A DNA stretch of 19,055 nt from Deltaproteobacteria bacterium (GTDB taxonomy: Bacteria; UBA10199; GCA-002796325; JACPFF01). Each line of letters opens with the position of its first letter. Position 1 is the first letter of the stretch. Location: contig JACPFF010000002.1 of assembly GCA_016183065.1 (NCBI GenBank), forward strand, positions 1 to 19,055, written 5' to 3'. Made by a program: the position numbers and the translations under genes. Below the pieces are notes generated by a model that saw nothing but the letters and a program-made list of their open reading frames with translations, had not been told where the DNA came from and did not search any database. This document shows, one piece after another, positions 7,722-16,303 of this stretch.

Positions 7722-7865
7722 GTGTGGAGGGAAGTGGAGTGCGAAACTCCCACGGTCCCGCCACTGTGAGTGTGGGCACTGCAGGGCGTCCTCAAGCCAC
7801 TGGGTCCTCCCGGGAAGGCGAGTCCTGCAGCGGAATCATACAAGTCAGGAGACCTCGCACGCCAG
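7717..7865 (+). promoter_or_regulatory. Cobalamin (AdoCbl-type) riboswitch
   Basis: Conserved aptamer blocks occur in order: GGGAAGTGGAGTGCGAAACT near 7730, GGTCCCGCCACTGTGA (7754-7769), AAGCCACTG (7794-7802), CGGGAAGGCG (7811-7820) and the B12 box AAGTCAGGAGACC (7842-7854). CTGGCGTG (7717-7724) pairs perfectly with CACGCCAG (7858-7865) as closing helix P1. Binding of cobalamin normally represses the gene downstream. Only 37 nt separate the aptamer from the btuB ATG at 7903, with the Shine-Dalgarno tract GAGGAGAGGGAGAG (7887-7900) inside. A small hairpin TCCT/AGGA (7880-7891) could mask part of that tract, so translational control is more likely than termination; that is inference. Confidence 0.93.
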
Positions 7866-7902: not shown

Positions 7903-9861
7903 ATGCGGCACGTCTGGCCTCTGATTGTTTTCATCGCGATTCTCTCACCCCAGCTTCTGGCGGCGGTTCGTTTGCCGGAGATCGTGGTCGAGGCCGTTGC
8001 AGAATCCGCGCGCGCACCGACCAGCTTTCACCACGTCATTCGCCCCGCGCGCGAAGCGCGACAACAGACCTCGGTGGCAGAGCTCATTAGTCGTACTCCG
8101 GGGACCATGGTCCGGGAACTCGGGTCGCCCGGTCACTTTGCGACCACCTCGATTCGTGGATCGAGTGCCGAACAGGTGACGGTCCTGCTCGACGGGATTC
8201 GTCTCAACTCGGCCGGGATCGGCGCCGTCGATCTCTCGACGATTCCCCTCGCGGCCATCGACCGTATTGAGGTCATTCGCGGGGGCGGGACGACGCAATT
8301 CGGCGGCGACGCCATCGGAGGCGTCGTCAATATTGTCACGCAACAGGGGAAATCGGGCCGGACACTCTCGGCACGTATTAGCGGCGGATCGTTTCTCACA
8401 CTCGGTGCAAGCGGGACGTACCTGCTGAGCCAGCCGAAACAGACGTTCCTGGCAAGCGTCGGTCATCACAGCAGCGCCGGTGATTATGCATTTCGCGAGG
8501 CATCAACGACCCTGAACGGCACGACCGTCGGCACGAGCAATACCTTTACGCGCTCGCACAATCGCTCGCTCGCCGAGTCGGCACTGATCAAATACGACCG
8601 GACCCTGGGCTCCGGCTGGCACATCACCGCGCTCAACGATTTTTTCTTTACCGATCGCCAACTCCCCGGCACGGAGATCGAGACCACCCAGTTGGCACCG
8701 ACCAATCCTTTGGAGGCCACACAGCGCCTCTTTCGGAACAATACCCACCTCGGCATGACGATACCGACCCGGCAACATCCGGAGCTTTCACTGACACTCG
8801 GCGTCGACAACGTGTTCGAGTCGCAACGATTCGATGACGCCAGTCCGGCGCTCGGTCCGGCCATTGCACGACTGACGACCAGCGAGGCGTTTGCTCCGCA
8901 TCTGCAGGTGGATCACACCATTCATACGGACTGGGCCAGACACGAGTGGCTGCTCCGCTATGATTTCCGCCATGATCACTTTACGGACGTGGCCCGCAAT
9001 GCCACCACCGTCGCGGGAGGCACCCACACGCGCCAGACGCATGCCGTCCTGCTCCAGAACCTCCTCTCGTTCCTGCACGACCGCCTGCAGCTCCTCCCCG
9101 CCGTCCGCGTGAGCCTCCCATCGGACTTCCAGGCGGCATCACACTACCGGCTGGGCGTGCGGGGGAAGCCGCACCACGCCATCACGCTCAAGGCCAACAT
9201 CGAGACCTCGGAGCGCGTACCGACTTTTTCCGAACTCTACTTTCCCGATCAGGGATTTATCCGCGGCAATCCCGACCTTGCACCAGAAAAGGCGTGGCAC
9301 TGGGATGGAGGGTGTGCCATCGATATCCCGCGACTCCGCGCCGAAGTCGCCTATTTCCGGCAATACATCGACAACTCCATTCTCTTTGTCCCCATCAGTG
9401 CCACCACGATTGCGCCGATCAACACCTTGACCGTGCGGGCCAGCGGCATTGAGAGCAGTCTCGAGGGAGAGCCGATCGCGTGGATGCGGCTGAGTGGCAA
9501 CTATACCTGGCTGCGCGCGCATTTTCAGAGCACGGGGAAGCAGTTGCCGGGACGGCCCGTACACAAGCTCAACGGGCGCGTCGAATTTTTCGGGCCGGTG
9601 GCCGGGCGACTCGACGGCGCATTCTATGCCGATATGCAATGGCTGAGCGCCCTCCCCATCACGGTGGAAAATACCGTGTTTCTCGCAGGACGCGCGACAC
9701 TGGACCTTGGCATCACGGCGACCTGGACCACAGCGCTAGGCACCACCTATTCGGCCTCCGCCGAGGTGCGCGATCTCACGAATGTCCAGCGCTACGACGC
9801 CCGCGGGTTCCCGTTGCCGCGGCGCGCCCTCTATGTCTCGCTGGGAGGACGCTGGGGATGA
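7903..9861 (+). CDS. btuB: TonB-dependent outer-membrane vitamin B12 receptor, BtuB-like
   Basis: This 22-stranded barrel type of receptor takes corrinoids across the outer membrane using TonB energy. The 652-residue product has a signal peptide (about 1-20, cleavage after LLA) and a TonB-box-like PEIVVEA (25-31). The plug domain carries TTSIRGSSAEQVTVLLDGIR, IDRIEVIRGGGTTQFGGDAIGG and VVNIVTQ. A long beta-rich barrel follows, including PTFSELYFPDQGFIRGNPDL and a final strand ending SLGGRWG instead of the usual terminal aromatic. B12 specificity is inferred from the riboswitch and the downstream btuFCD genes, since TonB receptors are hard to type by sequence alone. The stop overlaps the next start (ATGA). 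Confidence 0.9.
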   Translation: MRHVWPLIVFIAILSPQLLAAVRLPEIVVEAVAESARAPTSFHHVIRPAREARQQTSVAELISRTPGTMVRELGSPGHFATTSIRGSSAEQVTVLLDGIRLNSAGIGAVDLSTIPLAAIDRIEVIRGGGTTQFGGDAIGGVVNIVTQQGKSGRTLSARISGGSFLTLGASGTYLLSQPKQTFLASVGHHSSAGDYAFREASTTLNGTTVGTSNTFTRSHNRSLAESALIKYDRTLGSGWHITALNDFFFTDRQLPGTEIETTQLAPTNPLEATQRLFRNNTHLGMTIPTRQHPELSLTLGVDNVFESQRFDDASPALGPAIARLTTSEAFAPHLQVDHTIHTDWARHEWLLRYDFRHDHFTDVARNATTVAGGTHTRQTHAVLLQNLLSFLHDRLQLLPAVRVSLPSDFQAASHYRLGVRGKPHHAITLKANIETSERVPTFSELYFPDQGFIRGNPDLAPEKAWHWDGGCAIDIPRLRAEVAYFRQYIDNSILFVPISATTIAPINTLTVRASGIESSLEGEPIAWMRLSGNYTWLRAHFQSTGKQLPGRPVHKLNGRVEFFGPVAGRLDGAFYADMQWLSALPITVENTVFLAGRATLDLGITATWTTALGTTYSASAEVRDLTNVQRYDARGFPLPRRALYVSLGGRWG

Positions 9862-13381: not shown

Positions 13382-14190
13382 GACTGCGGTTTCGACACGT
13401 CATGATTGTTTGTGGCATCGTGGCAATAGTGACGGGACTCGTGCAGCAGGGACGGGCCACGCCACAACGGATCATCTCGCTCAAACCCAATATCACGGAA
13501 ATCCTCTTTGCCATTGGCGCGGGGGACCAGGTCGTCGGCGTGACGCAGTGGTGCAATATGCCGCAGGAGGCACGCACACGGCCCAAAGTGGCTGATTACC
13601 TCCGCCCCAACCTTGAGGCCGTGTTGGCCTTGCGTCCTGACCTGATCATTACGTCTCGGGAAAATGCCTTGCGACGGCCGATTGAACGATTGGAACAGGC
13701 CGGCATTGCACTGGTGATGGTCGACTTCTCCACACTCGACAAGACACTCAAAGCGATCGGACAGATCGGTCGCCGGACGGGACATACGGCGGAAGCCAAG
13801 GCACTGCGACAGCAATTGCAGGAGACGGTCAGGCGCTATCGCGGCTCCATGTCATATGCCCCAAAACCCGCGCTCCTCCTTGTGGCCGACAAACCGCTGA
13901 TTGCCGCAGGTCCCCGGTCATTGCTCGGAGAATTGCTCGACATCGTCGGCGGAAGCAACGTCGTCACCGCCGCACATCCGGCCTACCCGCGGCTCGGTCT
14001 GGAGCAACTACTGGCAACAAAGCCGGAGGTCATCATCATGTCGACCGGGCAGGCGCAGGCACCGCACGTCCCGGGCGGTCGTGCGATGACATGGCGCACC
14101 GTGGTGGTGCCGGTCGACCTGCTCCGCGCCGGTCCGCGCCTGGTCGATGGCCTTGCAGCCCTACATACCGCCCTCTGGGAGAAACCATGA
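13378..14190 (+). CDS. btuF: Periplasmic vitamin B12-binding protein BtuF
   Basis: BtuF binds cobalamin in the periplasm and hands it to the BtuCD importer. The 270-residue product has a signal peptide ending near residue 27 (QQGRA before TPQ) without a lipobox. The first lobe contains RIISLKPNITEILFAIGAGD, GVTQWCNMP and RPNLEAVLALRPDLII; the second contains SLLGELLDIVGGSNVV and LEQLLATKPEVIIMSTGQ. These are class III (helical backbone) binding-protein features shared by B12 and siderophore carriers. The riboswitch and BtuB context favour B12. Its ATG overlaps the upstream stop (ATGA), and its stop overlaps btuC in the same way, which suggests coupled translation. Confidence 0.92.
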   Translation: MRLRFRHVMIVCGIVAIVTGLVQQGRATPQRIISLKPNITEILFAIGAGDQVVGVTQWCNMPQEARTRPKVADYLRPNLEAVLALRPDLIITSRENALRRPIERLEQAGIALVMVDFSTLDKTLKAIGQIGRRTGHTAEAKALRQQLQETVRRYRGSMSYAPKPALLLVADKPLIAAGPRSLLGELLDIVGGSNVVTAAHPAYPRLGLEQLLATKPEVIIMSTGQAQAPHVPGGRAMTWRTVVVPVDLLRAGPRLVDGLAALHTALWEKP

Positions 14191-15161
14191 CGCGGAGACG
14201 ATGGTATTCCCTGCAGGCAACTTTGCTCCTCGGGATGGGCGGCGTGGCTTTCTGTGCGCTCAATATCGGTCCGAGTCCCGTGACCCTCTTTCAGATCTTG
14301 TCGGCCACCGACGTGGCCATTCTCTGGCAGGCGCGGTTGCCACGCATTCTCCTCGCCCTGGCGGTCGGCATGGCCTTGGGGGGCGCTGGGGCGAGCTATC
14401 AGGCACTCCTGCGCAATCCCCTGGCCGATCCGTACATCCTGGGCGTCTCCGGTGGCGCAGCACTCGGGAGCGCCATCGGCATCGGGGCGGGACTCCCATT
14501 TCCGTTCATCGCCCTCGCGGCCTTTGTCGCGAGTCTCGGCACCATCGGGCTGATCCTCATGATTGCCCGGGGAGACGCAGTGCACACCACCTATCGTCTC
14601 CTCCTCACGGGGGTGGTCTGCAATGCCTTTGCATTTGCGTGCATCATGGCGGTGCAGGCCGTGATCCCCATCGAACGTTCACATGAAATTCTCGTCGTGT
14701 TGATGGGCAACCTGACACTCGCGGACCTGCAGATCACCTGGTGGGTCTTCGGCATCGTGATCGTCGGGTTGATCATCCTCATGCGGCATGCACGGGCCCT
14801 GGACGCGTGGACGCTGGGGGCCGAAACCGCGGCCTCGCTCGGCATCGATCCCGCGCGACTCCAACGGACGATTTTCCTGGCAGGATCCCTCGTCGTTGGG
14901 GCATCGGTCGCTGCGAGTGGGCTGATTGGATTTGTCGGATTGATCGTCCCGCATGCCGCACGACTGATCGTTGGCCATCGTCACCATCTCCTCTTGCCGC
15001 TGTCGGCCTGTGGCGGTGGTGTTTTTCTTGTCGTGGCGGATACCGTGGCCCGCTCGGCCCTGCACGGTGGCGACTACACGACAGAGCTCCCGGTGGGCGT
15101 GGTGACGGCCCTGGTCGGCGCGCCGCTCTTCCTCTGGTTGTTGCGAAAGAGAACGGCATGA
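14187..15161 (+). CDS. btuC: Vitamin B12 ABC transporter permease BtuC
   Basis: This is the membrane subunit of the BtuCDF importer (FecCD family). The 324-residue product has about ten hydrophobic helices, the conserved segment LLRNPLADPYILGVSGGA (about 74-91) and the NBD-coupling segment GFVGLIVPHAARLIVGHRHH (from about residue 248). Length is normal for the family (320-350). An ATG overlapping the btuF stop (ATGA) gives the start; longer in-frame extensions would lie wholly inside btuF. Its stop overlaps the btuD ATG. It would form a dimer with two BtuD copies. Confidence 0.93.
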   Translation: MTRRRWYSLQATLLLGMGGVAFCALNIGPSPVTLFQILSATDVAILWQARLPRILLALAVGMALGGAGASYQALLRNPLADPYILGVSGGAALGSAIGIGAGLPFPFIALAAFVASLGTIGLILMIARGDAVHTTYRLLLTGVVCNAFAFACIMAVQAVIPIERSHEILVVLMGNLTLADLQITWWVFGIVIVGLIILMRHARALDAWTLGAETAASLGIDPARLQRTIFLAGSLVVGASVAASGLIGFVGLIVPHAARLIVGHRHHLLLPLSACGGGVFLVVADTVARSALHGGDYTTELPVGVVTALVGAPLFLWLLRKRTA

Positions 15162-16303
15162 CCGCTCCACCCAACGCTACTATTGGAGGGGCTCACGTCG
15201 CCCCCTCCACCGGCAAAGCCGGTGGAGCCTCCCCCTCTCGCGCGCGGTGCGCGCTGGGGGACTCCCTCGTCCACCCGCTTCGCGGGTCCCCGGACTCGGT
15301 CGTCGCCACACCCCCCTCCAGCGGCACAGCCGGGTCAAGGCCCAGCTTCGCTGGGCCGCGAAGCAGAGTCGAAGACTGTGCCGAGTGTGATGGAGCCTCC
15401 CCCTCAACGCCGCGGTGCGGCTGGGTCGTGGGGCCCCGGACGTCAGTCCGGGGGGTGTCGTGCTCCGGCGAAGCCTCCTCCCAGGGTGCCACGGGCGTGA
15501 GCCCGTGGGGCCCCACAGAAGGACCAGCGAACACGCTCCTCGGCGCATCGGCCATCGTATTTGTCTATGGCCGGCACACCGCGTTGCGCGATTGCGATGC
15601 GCACCTTCCCGAGGGCTCCATGACCGCACTGCTCGGACCCAATGGCGCCGGCAAATCGACACTGCTCCGCATCATGGCGGGCATTGCCACGCCGCAGAGC
15701 GGCACGGTCCGCTTTGCGGAGACGACCCTCCACACCATGCCACACCGCACGCGGGTCCAGCGAATCGCCTATGTCCCGCAACACTGCACGATCGAGTTCC
15801 CGCTGCGCGTCCGGGACATGGTCGCACTGGGCCGCGTCCCATTTCAGACCGGTCTCGGCTGGCTCACGGCCCGGGACCACACAGCGGTTGATAACGCCCT
15901 CGCCACCCTGGAGTGCACGGCATTCGCAAATCGCCTATTTCACACGCTCTCCGGTGGCGAACAGCAACGCGTCTTGATCGCCCGCGCACTCGCCCAGGCG
16001 CCGCAACTCCTTCTCCTGGACGAGCCCGCCATCCATCTCGACCCCGCAGCGCAATTGAGTGTCATGACCGCACTCCAGCACATTCAACGCGAACGCCACT
16101 GCACGATCTGTTGTGCATTGCATGATCTCAACCTGGCGTACCACTTTTGTGATCGCGCGATCCTCCTGCACGCGGGAACGGTCCGTGCCAGTGGCGCGGT
16201 CACAGAGGTCATGATCCCGGCGACCCTCTCGGCGATCTATGAGGCCCCCATTGCATGGGCGCAGGGCCTGATGGCACGCCATGGCATTCGGGGGAGACCA
16301 TGA
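15158..16303 (+). CDS. btuD: Vitamin B12 ABC transporter ATPase BtuD, with ~115-residue N-terminal extension
   Basis: BtuD powers import through BtuC. From the ATGA-overlapping start the product is 381 residues. The ABC domain starts only near residue 125 (NTLLGASAIVFVYG). Walker A GPNGAGKST is at 160-168, signature LSGGEQQRV at 264-272, Walker B LLLLDE at 284-289 and the H-loop His at 322 (ALHDLN). Without the extension the domain is ~257 residues, the family norm. Residues ~9-117 are a Gly/Ser/Pro/Arg-rich stretch encoded by the hairpin array at 15184-15508. The ATG at 15158 fits the operon's overlap pattern. The alternative is a GTG at 15497, inside the last hairpin and without a clear ribosome-binding site. 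The stop overlaps tonB. Confidence 0.9.
   Translation: MTAPPNATIGGAHVAPSTGKAGGASPSRARCALGDSLVHPLRGSPDSVVATPPSSGTAGSRPSFAGPRSRVEDCAECDGASPSTPRCGWVVGPRTSVRGVSCSGEASSQGATGVSPWGPTEGPANTLLGASAIVFVYGRHTALRDCDAHLPEGSMTALLGPNGAGKSTLLRIMAGIATPQSGTVRFAETTLHTMPHRTRVQRIAYVPQHCTIEFPLRVRDMVALGRVPFQTGLGWLTARDHTAVDNALATLECTAFANRLFHTLSGGEQQRVLIARALAQAPQLLLLDEPAIHLDPAAQLSVMTALQHIQRERHCTICCALHDLNLAYHFCDRAILLHAGTVRASGAVTEVMIPATLSAIYEAPIAWAQGLMARHGIRGRP
15184..15508. repeat. Array of short GC-rich triloop/tetraloop hairpins inside the 5' end of btuD
   Basis: About eleven inverted repeats follow each other. Clear ones: arms CTCCACCGGC, loop AAA (15205-15227); GCGCGC, loop GGT (15240-15254); ACCCGC, loop TTC (15273-15287); GGCCCAGC, loop TTC (15339-15357); GCCGC, loop GGT (15409-15421); CCCCGGAC, loop GTCA (15434-15453); CCACGGGC, loop GTGA (15489-15508). 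Weaker or longer-loop ones: TGGAGGGG (15184-15209), CGGC/ACA (15322-15332), AGTC/GAA (15367-15377), GGC/GAA (15467-15475). The 15-mer TGGAGCCTCCCCCTC occurs at 15223-15237 and 15391-15405, each followed by a hairpin with loop GGT and then TGGG. It resembles interspersed palindromic units such as REP/BIME or Rickettsia palindromic elements. The frame of btuD stays open through it. Confidence 0.85.

Follow-up and report, generated by a model that had tools for sequence, protein, structure and literature searches.

A hairpin array at the start of btuD

The window, the whole stretch of 19,055 nt analysed here, carries on its forward strand a btuC-like permease gene at 14188–15161 (ATG at 14188 within an open frame of 14091–15161; function assigned from gene context), whose stop codon overlaps the ATG of btuD at 15158 in the sequence ATGA. 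The btuD reading frame (15158–16303, forward strand) enters, after seven codons, an array of hairpins which had been described in the initial annotation and which we confirm, as the inverted repeats are present in the sequence. Comparison among copies elsewhere in the genome showed that 15179–15516 is one forward-strand copy of a modular palindromic repeat of 73% GC, with edges that are approximate to the base. It shares the ends ACTATTGGAGGGGCTC... and ...GTGGGGCCCCAC with other copies, belongs to the 339-nt length class (~339 nt when one base preceding ACTATT is included), and has all modules, i.e., a head, three inner modules and a tail.

The head (15179–15237) consists of ACTATTGGA, a GGGGC/GCCCC hairpin, a hairpin with a variable stem that shows compensatory changes, and the 15-mer TGGAGCCTCCCCCTC; it contains the hairpin CTCCACCGGC-AAA-GCCGGTGGAG at 15205–15227 and is the module most widely present in relatives. 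The 15-mer, duplicated as noted earlier, is present at 15223 and 15391. Next to the head lies a short exchangeable hairpin of the TCGCGCGCGGTGCGCGCTGGG type (15238–15256, with GCGCGC-GGT-GCGCGC at 15240–15254), which swaps with a AACGCCGCGGTGCGGCTGGG type among copies. The two further inner modules, both absent from 171-nt copies, are built around the hairpins ACCCGC-TTC-GCGGGT (module 15257–15310, hairpin 15273–15287) and GGCCCAGC-TTC-GCTGGGCC (module 15311–15390, delimited by copy alignment; hairpin 15339–15357). The region 15257–15334 has 46 matches in the same genome, and the two modules occur as separate units in relatives G003, G014 and G040, and in G007, G014, G029 and G034, respectively. 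The tail (15391–15516, 126 nt) has three hairpins, including CCCCGGAC-GTCA-GTCCGGGG (15434–15453) and CCACGGGC-GTGA-GCCCGTGG (15489–15508), and ends in GTGGGGCCCCAC; 24 of its 46 matches in the genome span all 126 nt at ≥94% identity.

As RNA, the array is predicted to fold at −212.5 kcal/mol compared to −195.5±6.2 kcal/mol in dinucleotide shuffles (z −2.74). No Rfam 15 family matched it above the gathering score, and the sole match in the window was a cobalamin riboswitch (RF00174, 71.4 bits) at 7728–7855, upstream of a TonB-dependent-receptor-like gene (7903–9861). Both lie in the same region as the btuF-, btuC- and btuD-like genes.

The frame from the ATG at 15158 stays open across the array and resumes after the insert as TEGPANTLLGASAIVFVYGRHTALRDCD, giving a protein of 381 aa (~268 without the insert) with its ABC_tran domain at residues 143–291. 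BtuD orthologues of relatives start ~32–36 residues ahead of Walker A and lack such an extension where their starts are readable; the check for a conserved N-terminal extension among these relatives thus came out negative. The sequence is most simply read as an insertion after approximately codon 7 by which BtuD gained an N-terminal extension that is translated; the insert would add 113 residues ahead of the ABC domain. For btuD only, the repeat could alternatively be an untranslated leader that forms a btuC-btuD mRNA hairpin, with BtuD starting at the in-frame GTG at 15497 in the last hairpin or nearby. The tail indeed contains in-frame GTG codons, copies are mostly intergenic, and N-terminal REPs of other species often lie outside the true reading frame (PMC3733652). 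Against this stand the overlap of the 15158 ATG with the btuC stop, the seven codons between this ATG and the repeat, and a frame preserved across the 339-nt insert. Moreover, the same peptide frame lies within murF, carA and acpS, where a complete protein can be made only by translating across it, which argues for translation of the insert; in murF and carA the identical peptide frame must be translated. We consider the leader unlikely, and the BtuD extension is probably made. An alignment-free structure prediction for BtuD reached a mean pLDDT of 32.5 and was set aside.

Copy number, modular build and distribution of the repeat

A BLAST search of 15158–15530 against its own genome (1.97 Mb in 30 contigs, 88.8% complete; the one genome of its genus in the comparison) gave 72 matches at E≤1, most of them far below 1e-5. 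Using this query plus head, middle and tail queries, and counting merged copies of ≥48 bp, we found at least 111 copies of 48–471 bp in the 644 kb read around matches; the copy list is partial, as the first pass scored the best 40 of 129–182 candidates per query. With more than 110 copies at hand, the objection that the genome might hold no other copy falls away, and the copy number indicates that the array is not a chance product. Based on a codon-usage score of the flanks that was trained on long reading frames, most copies are intergenic or located at gene ends.

The copies have a common 5′ end, ACTATTGGAGGGGCTC(A/G)CGTCGCCCCC, and the longer ones also the 3′ end GTGGGGCCCCAC; between these shared ends they differ by the presence or absence of whole modules. 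The commonest complete form is 171 nt long (head plus tail), and copies of 114, 186, 243 and 339 nt are also found in genes. In relatives, the head (query positions 11–89) and the middle modules (88–136 and 160–233) match as separate units, which gives the long copies the look of composites. In the second hairpin, 93% of stem cells are paired, compared to 78.7% in shuffles, although the stem sequence varies between copies, and the covariation score is 0.387 compared to 0.113±0.018 in shuffles of the same rows; these values come from 30 bulge-free sequences, a selection that leans towards pairing. Structures slid along the alignment as a control dropped to 23–46% paired.

Matches to the 5′ core were detected in 25 of 59 relatives, all of the same class, and an exact 23-mer pattern in at least 93 stretches of MAGs. 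Among the matches listed, the labels of these MAGs include Nitrospirae, Troglogloeales, Deltaproteobacteria, Syntrophus, Syntrophorhabdus, Bdellovibrionales, Acidobacteria and Peribacteria. One groundwater study was the source of several of these MAGs, and some of them, though not all, could be misbinned. The occurrence of an exact 23-mer in MAGs assigned to different phyla prompts one to ask what mobilizes it. Outside the genome studied here, stop-free in-frame copies occupy the leuS gene of G034, a molybdopterin oxidoreductase-like gene (L115) and the gene of a CCG-domain protein (L121).

Copies inside genes

Seventeen copies are located inside genes, and 16 of these are in frame and free of stops. 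Frame A (GGG GCT CAC GTC) is read in btuD, murF, carA and acpS. It is also read in the genes of a LysM transglycosylase, a phytoene/squalene synthase and a cupin-like protein, in that of an SLT protein, where the copy follows the signal peptide, and at C23:41323, whose product is of unknown family. In cinA and an alpha/beta hydrolase gene the copy is read in frame B, and in sucA, rlmN, nrdJ, the intein of nrdJ and the gene of an unknown protein (C7:9454) on the antisense strand. One peptide predicted from an insert reads SVRGVSCSGEASSQ. The expected Pfam domains were found in the named hosts; the C23:41323, C7:9454 and cupin-like proteins had no Pfam match, so their frame rests on codon usage. 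The 17th copy, in a btuF-like gene (C27:46262–46435; L030:16262–16435), keeps frame C and carries one in-frame TGA, representing either a broken gene or an exception to the rule. A through frame at C15:220552 was dropped, since the gene, FlhA-like flagellar by eye, probably starts after the repeat. The class II ribonucleotide reductase gene nrdJ (L022:968–6025; C3:9567–14624) harbors two antisense in-frame copies, one within its intein and the other in the C-terminal linker of the host protein.

Empty sites in homologs delimit several inserts. The alignment of MurF with E. coli MurF (1gg4) extends to residue 122 and resumes at 126, with the insert in between. MurF of relatives lacks the insert as well; the nearest of them, G001, reads KEMAASIAEARGPVLKTEGNFNN, where the protein studied here reads KEMIATIA, the insert and then GVGGPVLKTEGNFNN; the net gain over G001 is exactly 57 codons, i.e., the canonical 171 nt. 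This is the one murF found in the genome, as the only other match, a weak one, falls on the neighboring Mur ligase gene upstream (probably murE). The CarA insert is absent from relatives and from the solved structure, and those of RlmN, phytoene synthase and AcpS are likewise visible against solved structures, AcpS counting for less, since further PPTase-type matches exist in the genome. In relative G008 (L267), the CarA linker carries NNSPQPSLTLREG at nearly the same site, which by its sequence looks like a translated piece of a different repeat.

Frame A is open in 97% of head-bearing copies, whatever their location. Lengths divisible by three were observed for 11 of 12 full-ended in-gene copies compared to 25 of 45 other copies. 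A general depletion of stops was rejected: taken over all six frames, 54% are open compared to 48% in shuffles, so that only particular frames stand out. Random insertion would be expected to yield an open and in-frame copy in about one of five cases (0.54×1/3), compared to the 16 of 17 observed; as the through-frame scan is biased to in-frame cases, we claim no exact probability for this ratio. Where both flanks coded on the same strand without a through frame, inspection showed either neighboring genes or the copy with the TGA. In 85% of head-bearing copies, the antisense frame complementary to AGG GGC TCA is closed, by TGA where the head reads GCTCACG. Both head-bearing in-gene copies that use this frame, in nrdJ and rlmN, are open copies of the G variant; in the other genomes, from which the leuS, L115 and L121 copies come, this variant is common in any case (50 of 77).

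Strong hairpins, together with a 12-nt direct repeat that flanks the murF insert, could suggest that the inserts are skipped by the ribosome or another process (bypassing, splicing), leaving proteins of normal size. Neither an open frame nor a length in multiples of three, both of which are observed, would be needed for skipping; most other copies have no direct repeat, and modules vary freely with no conserved catalytic core, which makes skipping highly improbable. Equally implausible is a misjoining of repeats into genes during assembly. The genome is a MAG of 30 contigs, of which C26, C3 and C4 begin or end in the repeat, but a real repeat would also give such contig ends; moreover, misjoins would not preserve frames, and the family and its in-frame copies are also present in other assemblies.

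Thus, the array very probably belongs to a dispersed palindromic repeat, mobile now or in the past, that is made of hairpin modules, with in-gene copies found where they can be translated through. The earlier proposal of an added element inserted in frame is borne out by the more than 110 copies and by the BtuD orthologues that lack the extension. In our model, the repeat would have spread through the genome and settled mainly between genes, and in-gene copies would persist where the frame is kept, the used frame is free of stops and the site tolerates extra residues. The in-frame insertions into many genes are apparently harmless, and we infer that the host proteins still function. Against the overall reading stand the TGA-carrying copy in the btuF-like gene, the bias of the scan, the three hosts without Pfam matches and a source of mobility that was not found. 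More tentatively, we could be looking at one protein-compatible family of palindromic DNA, with lengths in multiples of three and an open main frame, that is exchanged between phyla and repeatedly adds ~23 to 113 residues to core enzymes, and that might act as a mobile supply of protein segments; this wider view we regard as possible but doubtful.

The best-known palindromic insertions of the in-frame kind are those of Rickettsia, an organism that is difficult to work with. An apparently separate family does likewise in other bacteria; its hosts include vital genes such as murF, leuS and rlmN, relatives show empty sites, and such copies permit direct tests of how proteins tolerate inserts and of how repeats stay harmless.

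Relation to known repeats and search for a source of mobility

Rickettsia palindromic elements (RPEs) are described in the account of PMC10969869 as dispersed palindromes of ~150 bp, many of them in frame in unrelated genes where they add peptide segments (Ogata et al. 2000, 2002). The repeat is likewise dispersed and palindromic (111 copies, hairpins, covariation) and inserted in frame into protein genes (16 in-gene copies; a single MurF). In contrast to RPEs, it occurs in other bacteria, the host not being Rickettsia by the labels of its relatives, has 73% GC, forms modular composites of 70–470 nt, uses both strands and is common to MAGs of different phyla. The RPE analogy drawn in the initial annotation holds for the way of working, and we claim membership in none of the ten RPE families.

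CGTC-tagged REPs have an unpaired CGTC at one end of a single 8–9 bp palindrome whose first two pairs are A/T, a loop of 4–5 nt and a CCA tail (PMC3733652). The repeat resembles them in having CGTC just ahead of hairpins, no dedicated transposase and some in-gene copies, but it is longer and modular, and its CGTC lies within the loop of the first hairpin; departing from the REP features, the second hairpin has a 9-bp stem starting with T-A and C-G and a 3-nt loop. With GTAG REPs/REPINs and their RAYT transposases, which are high-copy palindromes found mainly between and rarely within genes (PMC3733652, PMC8266576), it shares copy number, palindromic structure and mainly intergenic location; its shared ends contain no GTAG tag, and no linkage to RAYT was found. 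It is similar to MITEs (PMC10969869) in its non-autonomous size range, strong hairpins and occasional gene fusion, but has no simple terminal inverted repeats, and target duplication is at chance level. According to PMC3733652 and PMC10969869, RPEs and some CGTC and GTAG REPs are also found in frame in genes, so that in-frame palindromic repeats are a kind already known. What is unusual about the repeat described here is its modular architecture and broad distribution, and its core sequence was not found in print in the literature searched.

We infer that the repeat moves or has moved. Mobilization as a REP-type element by a RAYT (Y1) transposase appears improbable. In its favor, the one RAYT-like gene of the genome lies ~1 kb from a copy, and the lack of target duplication fits this transposase class. 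However, chance alone would put a copy near any gene at such copy density; among 30 Y1_Tnp loci in other genomes not one contains a copy, and G016, G034, G036, G038 and G040 carry copies while giving no Y1_Tnp match. RAYT mobilization was not supported, as Y1_Tnp genes neither track with copies nor are flanked by them, and no parent transposase was found among the Y1_Tnp genes searched. Target duplication was not detectable, the longest word shared by the flanks averaging 5.3 nt compared to 5.1 nt in re-paired flanks, and the repeat had no match in viral contigs, phages or plasmids.

An IS200-type transposase gene (L024:8794–9370; C8:65793–66370) appears to be truncated by a repeat copy ~200 nt into its frame. 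The 12-nt direct repeat around the murF insert (C24:39849–40022; L013:4950–5123) is CCACCATTGCAG, and a 9-nt direct repeat, CACTATTGG, flanks the copy at C24:165599, while the remaining copies show nothing above chance. These two direct repeats may be a clue to the manner of insertion.
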